Part shown: positions 8,825 to 19,336 of the stretch, in pieces
Layout of the letters: the number at the start of each line of letters is the position of its first letter
Position numbering within the stretch: position 1 is the stretch's first letter
Origin: a virus
IMG/VR virus record: IMGVR_UViG_3300038701_000581
Location: 1-21,003 of that record
DNA length: 21,003 nucleotides
Direction: 5' to 3' (one strand)
Notes under the pieces: generated by a model
What the model was told of the DNA's origin: nothing
The model's database searches: none
What the model saw: only the letters and a program-made list of their open reading frames with translations
Position numbers and translations under genes: made by a program

Positions 8825-11128
8825 ATGGCTAGGGTTCCGACAAGAGATAACTTCCGGGTATTACCGGGCGGTGGCGGCTCTGGACGGGTGCGGGCTAACG
8901 CGTCAGGTCTTGCAAGCGTTCAGGGCCGCGACTTGCAGCAAGTGGGCCAGACGGTCCAACAGGCAGGCGGTGTCTTAAACAATTATGTCGAGCGCGAACA
9001 AGACAAGCTAAACCAGGCGCGTGTGCGCGAAGCGGCTTTGACGTTTCGTGAAGACATGGCCGAGGCCGAAAGAGAGTATCAGCAATACCAAGGCGCTGAA
9101 TTGGTCGCGGGCGATAAGCCGATCATGCGGGACATTGAAGCGCGGATTGAACAGCGCCGGTCTGAGCTGTTTCAGGGCCTCACATCACAAGATGCGCAGG
9201 AAGCGTTTGAAATTGCGTCGATGGAGATGGCGTCCGGGTTTCGTCAGCGTGCCGCGGCATATGAAGCGCAACAGGCCGATTTTTACGTCGATCAGCAACG
9301 TGACGGAATGATTCAGGCGCAGATTGAAACGGCGATTTCGAGCCCTGAAAAGCGCGCCACCAGTTTGCAGGAAGCCAATGCGGTCTTGCGTGAAAAGTTT
9401 GAAGATCAGGGCTTTGATGGCGATCGACTGAACCAGAAGACGCAGGAAGCTATGGGTCAGTTATTGGCCGGTCAATTGGATGCCCTGATTGATGCGGGCG
9501 ATACTCAGGCCGCGCGAGATGTATTAGAAGCGGGCGGCGATTATCTAGCGTCTGACGATGCGTCAAAACTTCGCGTTGCGATCAAGAATAAAGAGGCCGA
9601 GACGCGGACGCTGGCGATTTATGAAGGGCGGCTAACGGCTGAAACCTTGTCTGAGATGCATCAGGCCGGTCAAATCGATGATGGCGACTATATGCGCCAC
9701 AAGGCCCAGCTCGATCAGTATGAGCGCCAACAGGAGGCACAGCGCAAGGCAGAAGAGACTGAGCGATATAAGAACAATTTCGAGCGGTTACGGGTTGCGG
9801 TTGATGATGGGCTAATGACTCGCGCTGATGTAGATCTGGCCTTTGAACGTGATCAGATCAATATCTCTCAATGGTCGCAGGCTGCACGCTTGGCCAATGA
9901 TGTTGAGGGGCGTCAGAGTTCGAGCAGTAATTTTGCAGAGTCGATGCAATTGGGTTTGCCGATTGATCCGCGGGACAATGAAACGCGCAAGGGCGCGAAT
10001 GCTCTCTTTCGGGCGAAAGGTGGTAGGGCTCTGTTTGCCGAAGATTTCAATCTGGGATTGGCACAGACAGCACAATTTGCGCAGGCTGGGATTATTCCAG
10101 ACGATGCGCAGACGGTTTTAAGTGGGTTTGTGAGTTCAGGGACGCCAGAACAGCAACGGCTCGGCCTAACGGCGATTGGTGATCTTTATGAGCTTGCGCC
10201 GAATGCAGTTGATGCTGCGTTTAGTGACAATCAATTATCAGATGCAATTAGCTACACGCATAAAGTGAATGCCGGTGTGGATGAGAATGCAGCGTATGAG
10301 GCGCTTCTGGTTGAGCGTGAGGCGCGAGCCAATCCTTCGAGTGGATATAATGCACTGATTGCAGAGGCGCGGGCGATTTCGAAAGACTTTGATATTTCCG
10401 ATGCCCTGAAGCGCCGCGATGCTGATGGCAAAGGTGGTTTCTTGTCGAGCGGCCCGAAGGTTGGGTCAGACGCCAAGCCTAAGCATGTGGATGATCCGAT
10501 TGTTGAGGCGCAAATCTTGAGCGACTTTACTGATCAGTTTGAAGCTTATTATTCGCTGCACGGCGATGAAGAATTAGCCAAACGCCAAGCGGCGGTGATT
10601 ATGGGCAAGACTGTGGGTCGCTCAGAAGCAAATGGCGGACGGGCCATGATGCATCCGCCTGAAAAGGTTTACGGCCTTGATGGTGATTGGGCGGCAAATG
10701 CGTTGCAGGAAATGTTTGCCGAACGTGACGGCGGGGTGTCTGACATTCAGCTGATCAGCGATGTCCGCACAAACCGTGAGATGCGCGAGGGGCGCGCTCC
10801 GACCTATGGTGTGGTGGTCTTTGATGAGAATGGTGTCATGGTGCCTCTACAAGCCCGTGTGGACTTCTCGGACGAATACCGCGCCGAGATAGAGAAACGC
10901 CAGGAAGAAGCGCGCAAAGCGCAGATTGAAGCGGCTAAGGGCAATAACAAGGCCGCTGAACGGATCTTGGAGCGTGAGGCTCTCGAGCGTAAAAAGGGCG
11001 ATGACATGTCTCGTCAACCTTTCCAGCGCGATCTATTCCAGATTGGCGGGCGGTTACAGTCTGAAGAAGAAGCGACGCGGACCAGTGAAAACGTGGCGCG
11101 TGATAGAGAACGATTGGAGGGCTATTGA
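8825..11128 (+). CDS. Internal virion / ejection protein (T7 gp15-like)
   Basis: This 767-residue protein (T7 gp15 has 747) is rich in Glu, Ala, Gln and Arg, and mostly helical. The N-terminus has a Gly-rich turn (VLPGGGGSGRVR, about 12-23), then helices with QDKLNQARVREAALTFREDM (about 59-78) and further long charged helices to about residue 330. No membrane segment, signal peptide or catalytic motif is evident. In T7, gp15 with gp16 forms the core stack on the portal and then the periplasmic tube for DNA transfer; this gene has the matching size and position. The stop TGA overlaps the next ATG (TGATG). No lytic transglycosylase motif was seen. The call rests on position, size and helix content more than on sequence. 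Confidence 0.8.
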   Translation: MARVPTRDNFRVLPGGGGSGRVRANASGLASVQGRDLQQVGQTVQQAGGVLNNYVEREQDKLNQARVREAALTFREDMAEAEREYQQYQGAELVAGDKPIMRDIEARIEQRRSELFQGLTSQDAQEAFEIASMEMASGFRQRAAAYEAQQADFYVDQQRDGMIQAQIETAISSPEKRATSLQEANAVLREKFEDQGFDGDRLNQKTQEAMGQLLAGQLDALIDAGDTQAARDVLEAGGDYLASDDASKLRVAIKNKEAETRTLAIYEGRLTAETLSEMHQAGQIDDGDYMRHKAQLDQYERQQEAQRKAEETERYKNNFERLRVAVDDGLMTRADVDLAFERDQINISQWSQAARLANDVEGRQSSSSNFAESMQLGLPIDPRDNETRKGANALFRAKGGRALFAEDFNLGLAQTAQFAQAGIIPDDAQTVLSGFVSSGTPEQQRLGLTAIGDLYELAPNAVDAAFSDNQLSDAISYTHKVNAGVDENAAYEALLVEREARANPSSGYNALIAEARAISKDFDISDALKRRDADGKGGFLSSGPKVGSDAKPKHVDDPIVEAQILSDFTDQFEAYYSLHGDEELAKRQAAVIMGKTVGRSEANGGRAMMHPPEKVYGLDGDWAANALQEMFAERDGGVSDIQLISDVRTNREMREGRAPTYGVVVFDENGVMVPLQARVDFSDEYRAEIEKRQEEARKAQIEAAKGNNKAAERILEREALERKKGDDMSRQPFQRDLFQIGGRLQSEEEATRTSENVARDRERLEGY

Positions 11129-14100
11129 TGGGACTTATCAATGACGCTGACAATCCAACGTTTAACCGTTTATCGGCGGGCTTACAGGATCAACCTGATC
11201 CGTCTGTTGAGCGCCCGAGTTCAGCGGCGCTATGGGGCGCGGCGTTTCGGACTGAGAACGTTGTCAGTTCCATCATGAGCCGCGAGCCAGGGCTTCTCGA
11301 TAATGAGATCGATGATGAGTTTAACCCTATCACGGATGAGAACCTTGCGGGCTATGAGAATTATTCTGACCGCTTTTACAATGTCTTCAATGAGCGTCAG
11401 AATGCGGCCCTGAAGCGCCAAATCGATCGTGAACAATCTGACCGGGACATTATCGCGCGGTCTGGGATTGCTGGTTTTGGTGCGGCTATGGCGGCGGGCA
11501 CACTTGATCCGACTGTTTTAATTCCGGTTGGCGGCACGATTAAGAAGGGTGACAGTCTTTTACGTGTGGGCCGTAATATGGCCTATGCCGGTGCCGCGGG
11601 TGCTATGGTGTCCGAGATCGCCCTGCACGCTTCACAGGAGACGCGCACGGCAGAGGAAACGGGCTTTGCGATTGCAGGTGGCGCGGTGCTTGGCGGTATT
11701 CTAGGCACGGGCGCGGTTGCAGGTTTTAGAGGCGCGACCGGAAAACCAATCACGGGCTTTGATCCAGATGAGTTGGCGAAGTTTGAGCGCGAGATGGTGG
11801 CTGACCCTGATGGCGACTTGAACGCGCCGGATGAGGTCTTGTTAGGCCAAATTGAGCAAGACATTGCAGGCATGGGCATTTACTCGCCGGAAGTTGTTAG
11901 AACGCAAGCGGCGGCAATGGAGGCAATGGTTTCCACACTTGCGCGCCGGACAGGACAAGATCCGAGCGAGTTTTATGCTGCGAATGGCCCTGCTTTGCGG
12001 GGTGATGATCGGGTGCGAGCACAAGGCAGCGAAGGCGAGTCACGCGTCGATATGACAGCGCGACATAAGGTGGAACTCGAAACACTGGAAGAAGAATTTA
12101 CGGATATTTCTGAACTTGAGGCTTTGGATCGTGCGGCTGAAGCCAAGTCTGCTGCTCGCAGGCAGGGGCGCGAAGATGTTGCAGAGACAACGCCAGAGGA
12201 GGCGTCAGCGGCGTCGAAGCTGAGCGCTCGAAAAGAAGAACTTGCCGCGCGCCGAATAGAATTGCTGCAGCGACAATTGGAGGAGAAGAGAAAACTTCGA
12301 GAGAAACAGGCCAATCAGGTCTTAGAACAAGCATCTGCTGCAGGCTATAAAGGTCAGGACACAGGCGAGGCCGCTGAATGGGTCGCGGCTAAGAACAAGG
12401 GCCTAGACATGTCTCAAGAGGCTCGCATGGCGCGGGCCGCGGAGATGGGGTTTGATACGGAGACGGTGCTGTATCATGGGACGGATTCTGTTAATTTCGA
12501 TGCTGTTGACATATCCAAAACAATAGATGACGCCTTTTCCTTGTCGGTTTCACCAAAAGACGCATCGAATTATGCCACGGGTGATGGATATGGGCATCGG
12601 CACGGCAGCGGCGCCTCTCGCGTGATGCCTGTGTTCATTCGAGGCCGGATCAAGAAAATAGACTGGAGCAAACTATCGGAAGGATGGGATCGGTGGGATG
12701 AAGGAATCGCAGATCGCGCAAGAAAATCAGCCCGTAACGAGGGGTATGCTGGTGTTCAGTTCGATAATGTCGTGGACTCTGGAGGTAACGCCCCTCAGGT
12801 CCAGGTCTTCGACCCCTCCAACATCCGCTCAGTAAACGCAGCCTTTGACCCTGAGATGTCGGGAAGTGCGAACTTGCTGCATCAGAATCCGCCTCGATCA
12901 CTTTTCGCCGCGATGAAAATGGACCCGCAAGAGCGATCCGAATGGTATGACCGAATTATTGATGAGAGCAGAGTCGGTAACAATACCGTCCTGACGATTA
13001 AGGCCGACACTCAAAACATGATCTTCGATGACGTTGTGATCGTTATCGAGAACGGTATTGATGTTGAGTTTACCGTTAAGGGCCAGCACGCAGATCGCGG
13101 AAGAAATGCGCCGCCTGAGAATATCGCCAAGGGCGCGCGTGTCATGGCTCAGGCCACGGCAGCCCTGCAAGAATGGATGCTACGCAATGACAGCCCGTTT
13201 GTCGGCTTTACGGGGGCGACAGAGGCGCATAACCGACTTTACGAGAGTATGCTGGGCCGCTTTGCTTTTGATGGCTATTTAGGGTATAAGACGGAAGAAT
13301 ACCGGCAATATGTAAATGTAGCCTCAGACGGTTCCAAACAGGCTGACGGTGATGCTTACGTCGCTGGATTCGGCTTTATGATCGTAAAGGATGGGTATCT
13401 TGAACAAGCAAAGCATTTCCTCAAGTCCCGCGAAGACGGGCTCAACGTTGCCCCAAGACCTGCGGGCGGAGGGGTCGTCAAAAACCTCGGAACCACAGTT
13501 CCCATTGAGCGCCGTTCTCGACGAGTGGGAAGCCCGGATCAAGGCGGGGACGGCGACAGAGGAAGATCTGGAGCTTCAGGAGATGGGCGAGCTTTTTCTG
13601 GAAGTGATGTCAGTCTAACGCCGATAGAGCCTGCGCAACGCGAGCTGTTTCAGGGTCAGCGCGGTCAATTCGACGTAGACACCAACACTATCACGCTATT
13701 CGACAATGCTGACCCGTCTACACTGATGCACGAGGCATCTCACTGGTATCTCGACCGCTTGTTCAAGATGCGCGGCAATGAGTTTGTTGACAAGCAATTA
13801 GGCGAGATTCTGGACTGGCACGGGACAAAAGCTGACGAAGTGTTTGATGATGCGGGCAATCTGACATCCCGCGGCGTCGAGTTGCAGGAAGCATTTGCCG
13901 AGACCTTTGAAAGCTACCTCCAGACTGGCAAAGCGCCCGTCCCTAGATTGCAGGCAGTATTCGATCAATTTCGTGATTGGCTGACAGCGCTTTATAAAAC
14001 ACTGGACCCACGCGAGCGGTCAAACCTGACGCCAGAAATCAAAGATGTGTTCGATCGGATGCTGGCCTTTGAGCCGGACGGCATGGAAAAGCTGAACCTG

Positions 14101-16515
14101 GAAGCCATGCGCAATCCGCAAAGCGTTGGCGCTGCGGCAATGGCTGAACCGACACTCGATGACTATGAGCTGGCCAATTCGCTTGGCTCCGCGGATGTCA
14201 GTGCAGCGATGCGTCTAAACCCGCTCTTGCGTATGGCGACGGCTGATAGTGCTGTGACCCGTGAGATTGGTGCGCAGCTTATGGAAAACGGGATGTACTT
14301 GAAGCGCAATCTCGACGGCATGGCGTCTCCTGTCTCTGTAGAGCAGGCGATGACAGAATACCGCGGATGGCACGCAAAGTCTGAGACCGCTGCGAGAGAG
14401 GCTTACAAAGCCGCCCGTAAGGACAAATCAACGCCGACTATGGGCGAAACTGAGTTCTATGAACGTGTGGCGCTGGCAATGCGCCGGGGCGATCAGGATG
14501 CTAACCCGCATGTTGTGAAAGCTGCCAAGGCGTACAGGGAGGCGCTGGATAAGGTGAAAGACCGCGCAATTGCTGAAGGGCTTTTGCCGGAGGATGTCAA
14601 AGTCACCACGGCTGACAGCTATCTTCACCGCATGTGGGATCGCAATATTCTGGCGCGCCGATCGACTGAGTTCAAGCAAATGACCCGCGCATGGTTGGGT
14701 GACACATTTGAAAGCATGATGGCCCGCGCAAATCAGTTGCGGTTCGAGCTGGAAAAGATGGGCGCGAAGCCAAATGATGCTGACAAGGCGTTTCTGGAAC
14801 AAGTCGATGAGTTAGAGGAGATCCTGGGCACTGAGGGCAATCTGAATGATTTTGCCAAAACCATTGCCGATGATGTCTTTGACGCGCTCATGGGCCACGA
14901 CACGCGGCTTGTCGATACAGGGTTTACCCTCGTCCCGAATGCCCGCGGACCCCTGAAAGAGCGCACGTTTAATATTCCTGACCTGTTCGAAGCGGGCGGG
15001 GTGAAGGTTGAAGACTTCCTTGTAAACGACGCTCAAGAGGTGATGAGCCGTTATATGCGTGTGATGGCCGCTGATATTGAACTGACGCGAGCTTTTGGAA
15101 GCCCTGACCTTGCTGAACCGATCGCACGTATCCGTGAAGACTATCGCAAGATGTCGGATGCGGCGACAACTGCGAAAGAACGCAAACGCCTGAATGACCA
15201 GATGCGCAACCGCATTGATGATCTGAATGGCGTTCGAGATGTTATACGCGGCAACTACGGAGAAAACCGCGTCTCTGGTTCGGGCGCGGTCTGGGCGCGC
15301 GGTGCTGAATTAGTTCGGGCATGGAATTTCATGACCATGCTTGGCGGAATGACCGTCTCTGCCCTGCCAGATGTCGGCAATAAGGTCATGGCGAATGGGT
15401 TTATCGGCATCACACGCGACATGATCGGGCCGCTGATGACTGACATCAAGGGTGTTAAAGGCGCTGCAAAGGAGGCCAAAGAGCTTGGTATTGCGGTCGA
15501 GATGGCTCTTGCCACACGGATTGCATCGATTGCGGATGTTGGCGACATGTACGGACGCGGGACGAAGTTTGAACGCTTTGTGCACAATCTCTCTAATCGC
15601 TTCAGCAATTGGACGCTGATGCGTCACTGGAACGATGTTATGAAGACCGGCGACTATATCGCTGCCACCAATCGCGCCATACGGGTCATGGAGCGCCCTG
15701 GGCGGGCCAATAAGAAAGCTAAGGCATGGCTTGCTCAGCTTGGCGTCGGTGAGGCGGATTATCAGCGCATCATGGCTCAGATCAAAGAGCATGGCGATAA
15801 GCGCCACACGATGCGCCTTGCGAATGTTGAAAAGTGGACCGACGAAGAGGCAAAGCGCGTCTGGATCGCAGCGATGGGCAAGAATGCCAATATCCAGACG
15901 GTGACACCGGGTGCGGGTGACAAGCTTCTCGTGATGAATGGCGATCTTGGTAAGACGCTTGGCCAGTTCAAATCGTTTGCAATGGCAGCAAATCAGCGGG
16001 TGATGATCCGCGGCGCTCAACAGGCTCGTATGGGGGATGCGCGGTTCTTGTCTGGTATGATGACCTTCATCTCGCTTGGAATGCTGGTCTATGCGCTGAA
16101 GTCGTATTTCTCGAACCGTGATACGACAGATGATCCGGTGACATGGGTGCGGGAGGGTATCGATCGATCGGGCACGCTGCCAATCTTCATGGAGGCGTTT
16201 AACACCGCTGAGAAGGTAACGGGTCAATCGATCATAGGTGACAGCCCTGCCAGCCGGTTTGCTTCGCGCGGGCGTGTTGACTCCCTAGCAGGGCCGACAT
16301 TTGGCCGGATGCAGAATGTGAGCGATGTTCTGGCGAATGCATTTGACGGTGAATTGAAAGATCGGGACTTGCATTCTGTGCGCAAGATTATGCCGTTCAA
16401 TAACGTGTTCTGGCTTCGTAAATTGTTCGATGAGTTCGAGATTCAGGCGGTGGACGCGCTTGACGCAGAAGAGACAACATTGAGCGAGCGTCGCGAAAGC
16501 ATGTTCGCAGATTAG
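11128..16515 (+). CDS. Giant ejection protein (T7 gp16-like) with ART-like and metallopeptidase-like domains
   Basis: This 1795-residue protein (T7 gp16 has 1318) is counted from the ATG at 11128, which overlaps the upstream TGA and has GGAGG before it. A TTG one codon earlier is less likely. Order: Ala/Gly-rich apolar stretches (about 109-130 and 177-203) that may enter a membrane; a charged coiled-coil region (about 310-410); an ADP-ribosyltransferase-like domain (about 432-582; H450-G-T, F470-S, Y482, FDPSNIRS near 561); an unassigned domain (about 590-760); a Gly/Arg/Ser linker (about 780-830); a zincin motif HEASH (868-872) with likely third ligand E921 or E925; then a long helical part. 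The C-terminus has an apolar segment (LSGMMTFISLGMLVYALKSY) and a conserved-looking KIMPFNNVFWLRKLFD. It is probably stored in the head and ejected with DNA. It is firm as an ejection protein; enzyme activity is untested. Confidence 0.88.
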   Translation: MGLINDADNPTFNRLSAGLQDQPDPSVERPSSAALWGAAFRTENVVSSIMSREPGLLDNEIDDEFNPITDENLAGYENYSDRFYNVFNERQNAALKRQIDREQSDRDIIARSGIAGFGAAMAAGTLDPTVLIPVGGTIKKGDSLLRVGRNMAYAGAAGAMVSEIALHASQETRTAEETGFAIAGGAVLGGILGTGAVAGFRGATGKPITGFDPDELAKFEREMVADPDGDLNAPDEVLLGQIEQDIAGMGIYSPEVVRTQAAAMEAMVSTLARRTGQDPSEFYAANGPALRGDDRVRAQGSEGESRVDMTARHKVELETLEEEFTDISELEALDRAAEAKSAARRQGREDVAETTPEEASAASKLSARKEELAARRIELLQRQLEEKRKLREKQANQVLEQASAAGYKGQDTGEAAEWVAAKNKGLDMSQEARMARAAEMGFDTETVLYHGTDSVNFDAVDISKTIDDAFSLSVSPKDASNYATGDGYGHRHGSGASRVMPVFIRGRIKKIDWSKLSEGWDRWDEGIADRARKSARNEGYAGVQFDNVVDSGGNAPQVQVFDPSNIRSVNAAFDPEMSGSANLLHQNPPRSLFAAMKMDPQERSEWYDRIIDESRVGNNTVLTIKADTQNMIFDDVVIVIENGIDVEFTVKGQHADRGRNAPPENIAKGARVMAQATAALQEWMLRNDSPFVGFTGATEAHNRLYESMLGRFAFDGYLGYKTEEYRQYVNVASDGSKQADGDAYVAGFGFMIVKDGYLEQAKHFLKSREDGLNVAPRPAGGGVVKNLGTTVPIERRSRRVGSPDQGGDGDRGRSGASGDGRAFSGSDVSLTPIEPAQRELFQGQRGQFDVDTNTITLFDNADPSTLMHEASHWYLDRLFKMRGNEFVDKQLGEILDWHGTKADEVFDDAGNLTSRGVELQEAFAETFESYLQTGKAPVPRLQAVFDQFRDWLTALYKTLDPRERSNLTPEIKDVFDRMLAFEPDGMEKLNLEAMRNPQSVGAAAMAEPTLDDYELANSLGSADVSAAMRLNPLLRMATADSAVTREIGAQLMENGMYLKRNLDGMASPVSVEQAMTEYRGWHAKSETAAREAYKAARKDKSTPTMGETEFYERVALAMRRGDQDANPHVVKAAKAYREALDKVKDRAIAEGLLPEDVKVTTADSYLHRMWDRNILARRSTEFKQMTRAWLGDTFESMMARANQLRFELEKMGAKPNDADKAFLEQVDELEEILGTEGNLNDFAKTIADDVFDALMGHDTRLVDTGFTLVPNARGPLKERTFNIPDLFEAGGVKVEDFLVNDAQEVMSRYMRVMAADIELTRAFGSPDLAEPIARIREDYRKMSDAATTAKERKRLNDQMRNRIDDLNGVRDVIRGNYGENRVSGSGAVWARGAELVRAWNFMTMLGGMTVSALPDVGNKVMANGFIGITRDMIGPLMTDIKGVKGAAKEAKELGIAVEMALATRIASIADVGDMYGRGTKFERFVHNLSNRFSNWTLMRHWNDVMKTGDYIAATNRAIRVMERPGRANKKAKAWLAQLGVGEADYQRIMAQIKEHGDKRHTMRLANVEKWTDEEAKRVWIAAMGKNANIQTVTPGAGDKLLVMNGDLGKTLGQFKSFAMAANQRVMIRGAQQARMGDARFLSGMMTFISLGMLVYALKSYFSNRDTTDDPVTWVREGIDRSGTLPIFMEAFNTAEKVTGQSIIGDSPASRFASRGRVDSLAGPTFGRMQNVSDVLANAFDGELKDRDLHSVRKIMPFNNVFWLRKLFDEFEIQAVDALDAEETTLSERRESMFAD
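13388..13618 (+). other. Alternative +1 frame inside the ejection gene
   Basis: The frame one base ahead of the long gene is open from just after a TAA at 13385 to a TAA at 13616-13618. From about 13490 it reads like ordinary protein (LSAVLDEWEARIKAG, then TATEEDLELQEMGELFLEVM) with codons in keeping with the phage. The annotated frame here gives a Gly/Arg/Ser/Asp linker with unusual AGA and GGA codons. Possible readings are a compensated frameshift relic, a programmed frameshift (A5 run at 13480-13484 and a GGGG at 13471-13474 are candidate slip sites) or overprinting. Confidence 0.45.
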
Positions 16516-16723: not shown

Positions 16724-19336
16724 ATGACTATATCCGCCGAAACGGCGGTAGCTGGTCCGTACAATGGTAACGGGTCAACAACCGCTTTTGCATTTTCATT
16801 TAAGTGTTTCAGCGCGTCTGACGTTGATGTCTATCTTGAGGCATCTACGGGGACTCAAACGCTGCAAACGCTTACCACGCATTACTCTGTTAGCCTAAAT
16901 TCTGATCAGGATGCATCGCCTGGCGGGACAGTAACAATGGTCACGGCTCCCGCGAGCGGCGAGCAATTGCATATTGTTTCTGGTGTGCCTTACACACGAA
17001 CAGACAACTTTTCTAATGCTGGTGGATTTTACCCGAATGTCTTGAATGATGCGCGAGACAAGACAACGCTTCAAATTCAGCAACTCTTGGACAAGCTCGG
17101 GCGCGCTGTAATTGGCCCCGTTGGGGATACCTTTACCAGCACACTCCCAAGCTCAGAAAACCGCGCAAACAAGTTTCTGTCATTTGATAGCAACGGAAAC
17201 CCTACGGTAGCGAACACTTTGTCTGAATCTTCCGTTTCTCTCGGGGATGGTTGGAGCACGCGCCTTTCTGGCGCGCTTAGCTCTTATATGTCAGGCGCGA
17301 TTGGTGCAGCCGATCAGGCGGAGTTCCTTTCTGCGACAGGGCTTGATGAGCTTCTGTCCCAATATAATGGCGTCATCATAGATGTGGTCTCGACCACGAT
17401 CATCGACGTATTCGAGGGCAAGGGCGCTGACAAAGAATTTACGTGGATTAGACGCCGGTTCGAACGCAAGACCAGCACGGCGCTCAATTATGACGTTTGG
17501 CTAATCACGTCTATTCGTGCGGCGGCTTTGCAAGCGGATGGGACATTCAAATACGGCCAGAAGATTGAAGCACCGGGGGCCCATGACTTCGCTATTCGTG
17601 AGAACGGCAAAGCGGACTTCATGGGCGGGACAGCTCACGGCAATGAGGTCATCACAGGATCTGTTGCGCTTGTCGTGGACGGTGAGTCTCAGACCATTAC
17701 AGCGGGCGCGCGTTACGTCGGCGCTAGCGCCTATCTTGAGCAGACGACGATCTTCTATGAATATATCTCAAGCTCGGACTATACCGGCTCTGAGCTGGGC
17801 CGCTGTACGCGGCGATGGGAGTTCAGAGACACCACTGACGGCGCGATGCGTCTGCACAATACGGTCAACTGGGACGCAAACCTGAACACGACTATCCCAG
17901 GCTTTAGCGTCGATTTCGCTTATTTGGCCATGTATCCATATGACGGAACATTCTTCACTAAAACCAATTGGGAACCGGGTGGTACGCTTTCCACGCACGC
18001 TAATGCAAACGTCACCTATCCCGGCACGTCCACATGGGATGCCACTTCGATAACCATCCAGAATGATGACGGGTATTCGGTCACGGTTGCGCAGTCCTCC
18101 GGCTGGCCATCTGGGACAGCGACGGGGCGTGACACACTCGTCAGCACTAAGCGCAAAGTTTATATGTCTTACCAAGGCCAGGGGTCTGGCAGCCCTGTTA
18201 CGGTGGCAGATGGCGAGACGTGGGCCGTAGTCACTGAATACACGACGCAAGTGCCAACTGTGACAAGTCCTTCGTCGTTCGGTGATGCGGGTGTCACGCT
18301 GTCAGAACGGGCGCGCGGTCGGCGCACGTCTGCGGGCAATGGTGAAATTATCTTCGAAAGCACGACTTTCACGCCGAGCGATTACTTTTCAGAAGGCGAT
18401 ATTGTCACCTTCACGCCTTCTGCGACGTTCTCAAATGGCTCTGGTGAAACCGTCAATTTGGCGGGTGAATACATTGTTCAGATTGTCGATGATGCAAGCG
18501 ACAAGATCCAAATTCAGGCTCCTGGCGGGGATTGGGAAGATCTGGCCGATGACACGAAATGGACCAGTAACGCCACGCCTTATCTTTTGTGTGAGCTGTC
18601 GCTGAACGGCGGCGGAAGCCCTGCGATCTCGAGCGTTGATCCTGCATCGGACCTCTCAGTCACGTGTGAGCTTCGGTGGGTGCGCAACTCGAATGGCAAC
18701 CTTGAGGTTCGTTATCAGAACTATACGCCGGGGCGTGACTTCACGACTGACTGGTCTGCTGGTGACACGATCACAGTTGTTTCGGACACTTACACAAACA
18801 CGCTCGATGGTTCGACGGAAACGGTCAACTTCTCGTTCGAGATGGTGATAGGGTCGATCATTGGTGGATCTAGCACCTTCTATGTGAATCGCTCCTCAAT
18901 GTCTGAAGAATTGGCAGCAGAGGCAGATAAGCTAGACGATGGTTGGACCAGTGATGCAACGGTCGGATATCAGCCCGCATTGATCAGCTCTGGTTCTGGC
19001 TCGAATGACTGGCAGACGCCAGACTTCAGCCTTGCTGACGATGTTTCGACGCGCTGGGTTTTTCCGCCAGACACTGACTATGCGCTTGTATCGTTTGAAT
19101 CCGATGATGATAGCTCTGCAAGCGGCGTCTACAGTTTTAAGCCAGATGCCTCTTCACCCACACTCTTGGCGCGGGGAGGTGCTGGAACCGTTGCGGCGGC
19201 TGGCACAACTACGGACGCAAGCGGGACGGACACGGAATACACGCTGAAGCCTAATGATTTTCATATAGGTCTATCGAACCGGCGAGGCGCAACGGTCGCA
19301 ACGATCGGCTCAGTCCTCAGCATTAAGCGGTCATAA
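16724..19336 (+). CDS. Tail fiber / receptor-binding protein
   Basis: This 870-residue protein opens with the T7 gp17-type attachment domain (about 1-130): YNGNGSTTAFAFSFKCFSAS (13-32), a beta-rich middle, and FYPNVLNDARDKTTLQIQQL (about 102-121), the helix that recurs where such fibers join the tail. The remainder is beta-rich and variable: a domain with FMGGTAHGNE (299-308), a Ser/Thr/Gly-rich section, and two degenerate tandem repeats at about 539-620 and 657-749. The C-terminus is Gly/Ala/Thr-rich, without a clear chaperone domain. It should be the trimeric receptor-binding fiber. No depolymerase catalytic motif is evident. The gene is transcribed after a 53-base gap that follows the antisense gene, and its stop overlaps the next ATG. 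Confidence 0.88.
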   Translation: MTISAETAVAGPYNGNGSTTAFAFSFKCFSASDVDVYLEASTGTQTLQTLTTHYSVSLNSDQDASPGGTVTMVTAPASGEQLHIVSGVPYTRTDNFSNAGGFYPNVLNDARDKTTLQIQQLLDKLGRAVIGPVGDTFTSTLPSSENRANKFLSFDSNGNPTVANTLSESSVSLGDGWSTRLSGALSSYMSGAIGAADQAEFLSATGLDELLSQYNGVIIDVVSTTIIDVFEGKGADKEFTWIRRRFERKTSTALNYDVWLITSIRAAALQADGTFKYGQKIEAPGAHDFAIRENGKADFMGGTAHGNEVITGSVALVVDGESQTITAGARYVGASAYLEQTTIFYEYISSSDYTGSELGRCTRRWEFRDTTDGAMRLHNTVNWDANLNTTIPGFSVDFAYLAMYPYDGTFFTKTNWEPGGTLSTHANANVTYPGTSTWDATSITIQNDDGYSVTVAQSSGWPSGTATGRDTLVSTKRKVYMSYQGQGSGSPVTVADGETWAVVTEYTTQVPTVTSPSSFGDAGVTLSERARGRRTSAGNGEIIFESTTFTPSDYFSEGDIVTFTPSATFSNGSGETVNLAGEYIVQIVDDASDKIQIQAPGGDWEDLADDTKWTSNATPYLLCELSLNGGGSPAISSVDPASDLSVTCELRWVRNSNGNLEVRYQNYTPGRDFTTDWSAGDTITVVSDTYTNTLDGSTETVNFSFEMVIGSIIGGSSTFYVNRSSMSEELAAEADKLDDGWTSDATVGYQPALISSGSGSNDWQTPDFSLADDVSTRWVFPPDTDYALVSFESDDDSSASGVYSFKPDASSPTLLARGGAGTVAAAGTTTDASGTDTEYTLKPNDFHIGLSNRRGATVATIGSVLSIKRS
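18338..18970 (+). repeat. Degenerate tandem repeat in the tail fiber (protein level)
   Basis: Two segments align by eye: residues 539-620 and 657-749. Shared order is N-G-(E/N) then TP, (E/A)GD(I/T), a GS(G/T)ETVN turn, an extended pair of strands, then an acidic helix-like stretch with LADDTKWTSNAT or LDDGWTSDATVG. The DNA no longer looks repetitive, so the duplication is old. Confidence 0.5.

Follow-up and report, generated by a model that had tools for sequence, protein, structure and literature searches.

A probable small gene nested in the +1 frame of a giant phage virion-protein gene, and similar nested frames at domain ends in other phages

Nested overlapping genes are already known as a kind in phages, where gene E within gene D of phiX174 and Rz1 within Rz of lambda are read out of frame from inside another gene. 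The epsilon-zeta pair is a toxin-antitoxin system. Programmed +1 frameshifting has been described in the Listeria phages PSA, A118 and A500, in which it occurs at CCC (PMC5009743). In the account of polyvalent proteins by Iyer et al. 2017 (PMC5512222) the word 'overlapping' occurs 0 times, and nested +1 ORFs lie outside its description. Here we describe a +1-frame ORF at positions 13400-13618 of a viral contig that, judged from its sequence, is probably a real and still-selected small gene with its own TTG start at 13400, nested within a giant virion-protein gene.

The window, that is, the whole stretch of DNA that was analysed, is a complete IMG/VR record of 21,003 bases with structural genes of podovirus type (a head-tail adaptor, major head protein, tail proteins, internal virion protein, and tail fibre). 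The giant host ORF (11125-16515, on the plus strand, as are all features of the window given below) encodes 1796 amino acids from either TTG 11125 or ATG 11128, and it matches PHROG 342, 'internal virion protein with endolysin domain' (E 1e-104), and PHROG 16310 (E 7e-131). Its main frame holds an ART-PolyVal domain, the ADP-ribosyltransferase of polyvalent proteins (12466-12837; PF18760, E 2.6e-7, above the gathering score), a domain X (12901-13436) for which profile searches returned no family match above cut-off and at whose end the nested ORF starts, a Gly/Arg/Ser/Asp linker (13504-13626), a metallopeptidase-like domain (13633-14073; HEASH at 13729-13743; PHROG 9880, E 1.3e-35), and a C-terminal region common to podovirus internal virion proteins (14854-16428; PHROG 16310 and 342). 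With ART-PolyVal, metallopeptidase-like, and internal virion regions, several conflict-type domains are combined in one phage polypeptide, a polyvalent protein of the ejection type as PMC5512222 uses the term. Phage homologues begin to match only from the metallopeptidase-like domain onwards. We also observed that an LFQ(G/S) motif recurs at domain borders (RELFQ, VLFQS, and PLFQG; window 13627-13650 and the giant ORF of L025), where it is possibly a processing or border signal.

The initial annotation had drawn attention to a protein-like second frame ending in TAA at 13616-13618, and our analysis bears this out: the +1 frame is open from 13388 to that stop, reads ...PLSAVLDEWEARIKAGTATEEDLELQEMGELFLEVMSV before it, and carries a coding signature. 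The helical sequence that had been placed from about 13490 is present, although its LDEWEAR start lies slightly later, at 13517, and the main frame is indeed a Gly/Arg/Ser/Asp linker with less-used codons (AGA 40 and GGA 54 among the 6,525 codons of the contig). Scored by codon log-odds trained on the contig's own genes, in segments of 37 codons, the main frame drops and the +1 frame climbs across the nested stretch, reaching +0.47 in the +1 frame versus -0.22 in the main frame at 13505. This difference is the largest among the 12,178 out-of-frame segments of the contig's genes, and no out-of-frame segment outside the locus matches the +1 score of 0.47. The open length alone is unremarkable, as two longer open stretches occur in the same frame of the giant host ORF. 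Taken with conservation and simulation, described below, the coding score supports an ORF of 72 codons plus TAA (13400-13618) as a genuine second coding frame. The earlier suggestion that the linker was made by overprinting at a domain junction is borne out as well.

We identified a single close relative, L017, a viral contig of 28,816 bases with a giant ORF of 3,663 codons. Its domain X is 72-75% identical to that of the window and is followed by the same main-frame linker and the same +1-frame peptide ending in TAA, so that aligning the homologues, as had been proposed, shows the +1 peptide conserved and the main frame open; both frames stay open across the overlap in the two contigs. The nested proteins are approximately 67% identical, with 11 of 12 residues shared in the N-terminal arm and the same sequence in the hairpin, and the contrast in coding score is repeated in the relative (+0.48 vs -0.18), where it marks the top site of the giant frame of 3,669 codons. 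Downstream of the linker the relative has other domains, its metallopeptidase-like match lying approximately 3.8 kb further on. Because the sequence after the linker differs, domain X, the linker, and the nested ORF form a shared unit. The putative tail fibres of the two contigs (window 16724-19336; L025:12573-14816) have a long, very similar stretch in common, although the giant proteins differ over much of their length. Searches of viral contigs returned the same single relative each time, a search of a genome collection for relatives of the +1 peptide found nothing, and 50,697 phage records gave no useful match to it. Two candidates were set aside, L002, in which a tail-sheath-like gene matches KAGTATEE by chance, and phrog_1683 / T4 RIIA.1, whose weak match to the +1 peptide (E 0.09-0.26) was treated as chance.

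The pattern of substitution between the window and this one homologue points to selection on both frames. Of the main-frame third positions, 88 of 183 are changed in the part of domain X that precedes the ORF versus 19 of 71 over the nested ORF as a whole (P 0.003, statistically modest), and 6 of 48 in its two conserved parts together (P 5e-6, for parts that were picked after the alignment had been seen). These parts are an N-terminal segment, (M)NKQ[SN]ISSSPAK (13400-13436; 1 of 12 main-frame third positions changed), and the helical hairpin (13505-13612; 5 of 36 changed). Between them, positions 13437-13501 vary in either frame, the relative having insertions there whose lengths are multiples of three, and constraint is absent from either frame over 13437-13504, as would be expected of a disordered arm and also of slippage at CCC 13501. 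In simulations with constraint on the main frame only, or with no constraint, a stop-free +1 frame with the observed similarity arose in no more than 0.35% of runs when similarity was taken as BLOSUM score and in up to approximately 2% when it was taken as identity. With only the +1 frame constrained, 0.3-3.4% of runs retained an open main frame with the observed degree of similarity. From these phase counts and simulations, both frames look coding, with the +1 frame under the stronger constraint; the host frame thus appears to code through the overlap, and the second frame to be under purifying selection as seen against this homologue.

A signal of this type could arise in ways other than a living gene. 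The order of coding signal, main frame, +1 frame, and main frame again, is what a double indel would leave behind, and the initial annotation had considered a relic left by an indel and its compensation; an old frame behind the linker would then no longer be translated. The substitutions that postdate the split from the relative run counter to this, as 9 of the 17 in 13505-13612 fall on the wobble position of the +1 frame, the commonest class, and 5 on that of the main frame; a neutral simulation reaches the observed similarity in approximately 0.35% of runs, and the independent contig has the same layout. A dead relic is therefore very unlikely. The stretch is also locally more conserved than its surroundings (17% changed vs approximately 25%), as would be the case if a structure or binding site in the DNA or RNA, and not translation, conserved the peptide, but the +1 frame has the codon usage of a real gene, changes that follow codon phase, and insertions in multiples of three, and RNA structure is not in excess, which makes such an element highly improbable. 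Finally, although the window is a single contig, in which a sequencing or assembly error could switch the frame twice, the independent relative has the same main, +1, main layout. Because two contigs share this double layout, sequencing error is ruled out, and neither the read error once considered as grounds for discarding the second frame nor a misassembly retains any appreciable probability.

How ribosomes reach the +1 frame is a separate matter, in which an internal start is weighed against a +1 shift. A Shine-Dalgarno-like AAGGA (13387-13391) lies 8 nt before TTG 13400 and is conserved in the relative, with a pairing energy of approximately -8.0 kcal/mol in both phages, where the ordinary starts of the contig range from -1 to -10; by this measure the start ranks in the top 4% of those lying out of frame in the giant gene. 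The conserved part of the +1 frame starts with this same codon (11 of 12 residues). The nested frame has a conserved ribosome site and start codon of its own, the start being a TTG, a weak start codon that counts against the nested-gene reading, and not an ATG. The other candidate starts are poorer: ATG 13391-13393, upstream in the +1 frame, is ACG in the relative, has a poor ribosome site, and is not likely to be the nested start, and the ribosome site of TTG 13505 is poor as well. Slippage on the A5 run (13480-13484) and GGGG (13471-13474), as first proposed, did not hold, since both runs are present in the window and neither is present in the relative. The rival site is instead a proline codon, CCC 13501-13503 (CCC-A in the window, CCC-C in the relative), at or near which a fraction of ribosomes might re-pair tRNA-Pro one base on. 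This would yield, alongside the full-length protein, a product of approximately 830 residues with a helical tail, ending in TAA at 13618; the length predicted earlier for a slipped product is right if the slip falls at this codon. CCC is the least used proline codon (23 of 237), the shifted codon (CCA, or CCC in the relative) is able to re-pair as expected of a slippery site, the coding score of the relative switches frame near it, and the three Listeria phages shift +1 at CCC (PMC5009743). Against a shift stand an A-site codon (ATT / CTT) that is neither slow nor a stop and so provides no stimulator, fold z-scores of -1.0 to +0.7, not above shuffles, with no conserved structure, and conservation of the +1 frame upstream of CCC from TTG 13400 (1 of 12 main-frame wobble changes, in a short segment). 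A shift would also leave the strong conserved ribosome site unexplained, and the analogous N1 and N2 ORFs of other phages, described below, carry an ATG of their own. We consider both a programmed shift here and its long product unlikely, though well ahead of the relic and the nucleic-acid element. Because the Shine-Dalgarno-like site and TTG are conserved, +1 conservation runs from that TTG, and the analogues have clear starts, internal initiation at TTG 13400 is the better supported route and is favoured several-fold over a +1 shift at CCC 13501.

With internal initiation, ribosomes would start independently at TTG 13400, positioned by AAGGA, and make a product of 72 residues, while the main frame would read the same DNA as a flexible linker from domain X to the metallopeptidase-like domain. 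AlphaFold2, run with two sequences only, predicts a disordered N-terminal arm (residues approximately 1-35) and a C-terminal helical hairpin (36-49 and 54-71; pLDDT approximately 92). Fold searches with this hairpin gave nothing significant; the best match to a solved fold, YnzC of UPF0291 (3bhp), is a helical hairpin too, but at a non-significant Foldseek E of 2.5, and as the nested protein has no Pfam match either, it was not assigned to that family.

Scanning the giant proteins of other phages, we found more +1-frame coding-like stretches at domain ends. The N1 family comprises 80 viral loci (L026-L105; e.g. L038:3575-3763 and L043:3608-3808), in which a conserved domain ending in ...FPEKxDYDYA is followed by a +1 ORF, MPVRxMTPEExxxxFGNGxVxFGxKRP, with a variable tail. 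Of 50 non-redundant loci, 48 have an ATG. The Tyr codon in which it lies reads TAT in 48 of 49 cases (the other is TAC, and one further locus has Phe), whereas another Tyr, six bases upstream, is encoded as TAC in 42 of 50 (P 1e-18 for the contrast). A Shine-Dalgarno-like core (AAGGA, AGGAG, AGGA, or GGAG) lies 7-10 nt before the ATG in 41 of the 50, with AAGG at 12 nt in 1 more, and across 19 disjoint pairs the main-frame third-position difference is 43% ahead of the ORF but 19% within it (P 3e-16). The N2 family (L031-L101; 18 non-redundant members; e.g. L076:5015-5200 and L044:2813-2983) reads MENxSAQQPNLDQDxHDKWL...LARSKE and shows a drop in main-frame third-position rate from 0.52 to 0.08; over the first ten residues, counted from the QPN motif, identity is 79% in the +1 frame versus 59% in the main frame. 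It is also predicted to form a helical hairpin, at lower confidence, and it moves with its own upstream domain (54-78% identical), placed before or after the N1 domain. In N4, an ATG-started +1 ORF of 51-65 codons lies at the end of Zeta-toxin domains (PF06414, E 2.8e-15) at five distinct loci (L041:1112-1294, L038:1124-1303, L039:1133, L063:5036, and L069:2723); its conservation is weaker evidence, the ungapped pairs of the phase test being misaligned by indels. We also noted a +1 candidate that is similar in two phages (L077:2278-2449 and L081:2013-2301; MHRPLxxxEvKTYQDnQrrIDEALmnmGAIRP), and protein-like +1 stretches with a stop inside giant ORFs at L006:951-1115 (Limnohabitans phage DC33) and L048:1177-1408.

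Neither N1, N2, nor the nested protein of the window has a convincing Pfam or PHROG family, and N1 has none in NCBIfam. One N1 and one N2 query found no counterpart in the 50,697 phage records, among which the N1-type ORFs of L003, L005, and L012 (phage zth2-2) are too diverged for that N1 query to detect. Profile comparison found no homology among the nested families, and both domain X and the nested protein of the window are unrelated to N1 and N2. Because the families lack detected sequence homology, the window's case fits the pattern by position and layout, and not by descent. Where the nested ORFs lie, the GenBank phage records that were checked annotate the giant frame alone, and a recurrent, domain-linked nested set in giant virion-protein genes was not found in the open-licence literature searched.

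We hypothesize, tentatively, that the nested product is a co-made partner of the preceding domain, either an antitoxin or a chaperone, as its position, its co-inheritance with that domain, and the Zeta-toxin case would suggest. Such a partner might bind the newly made domain and hold it in an inactive or unfolded state until packaging of the giant protein. More generally, and with the same reserve, giant ejection-protein genes may carry domain-specific +1 nested antitoxins or chaperones, whereby effector and neutraliser would form one indivisible cassette during shuffling. The pairing is one of co-location, with N4 beside a Zeta toxin and N2 moving with its domain, and nested products may instead act in assembly or regulation. 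Gene callers discard ORFs inside longer ORFs. If these nested ORFs are genes, annotation lacks entire families of small phage proteins, and the linkers of giant virion proteins would be by-products of double coding. Moreover, the Zeta-toxin case opens to testing the old question of how a toxic ejected protein is made without early harm to the cell that produces it.

Compared with described systems, the host protein resembles the polyvalent proteins of phages and conjugative elements (Iyer et al. 2017, PMC5512222), which are also giant, modular, and multidomain and include ART and metallopeptidase-like domains. With the Listeria phages PSA, A118, and A500 (PMC5009743), the locus shares a virion gene, a proline CCC near the change of frame, and a possible second product; unlike them, it has neither a stop codon nor a conserved structure at the change of frame, its +1 frame is already conserved ahead of CCC, and the analogues have starts. 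The N4 loci share with epsilon-zeta a Zeta-toxin domain and a small adjoining gene, as an antitoxin gene would be, but the candidate gene runs, in another frame, over the last part of the toxin domain. In layout the proposed gene resembles phiX174 E and lambda Rz1, each of them a small gene wholly inside another, on the same strand, in a shifted frame, and with its own start; unlike those, several unrelated nested ORFs occur here, at the domain ends of giant virion-protein genes.
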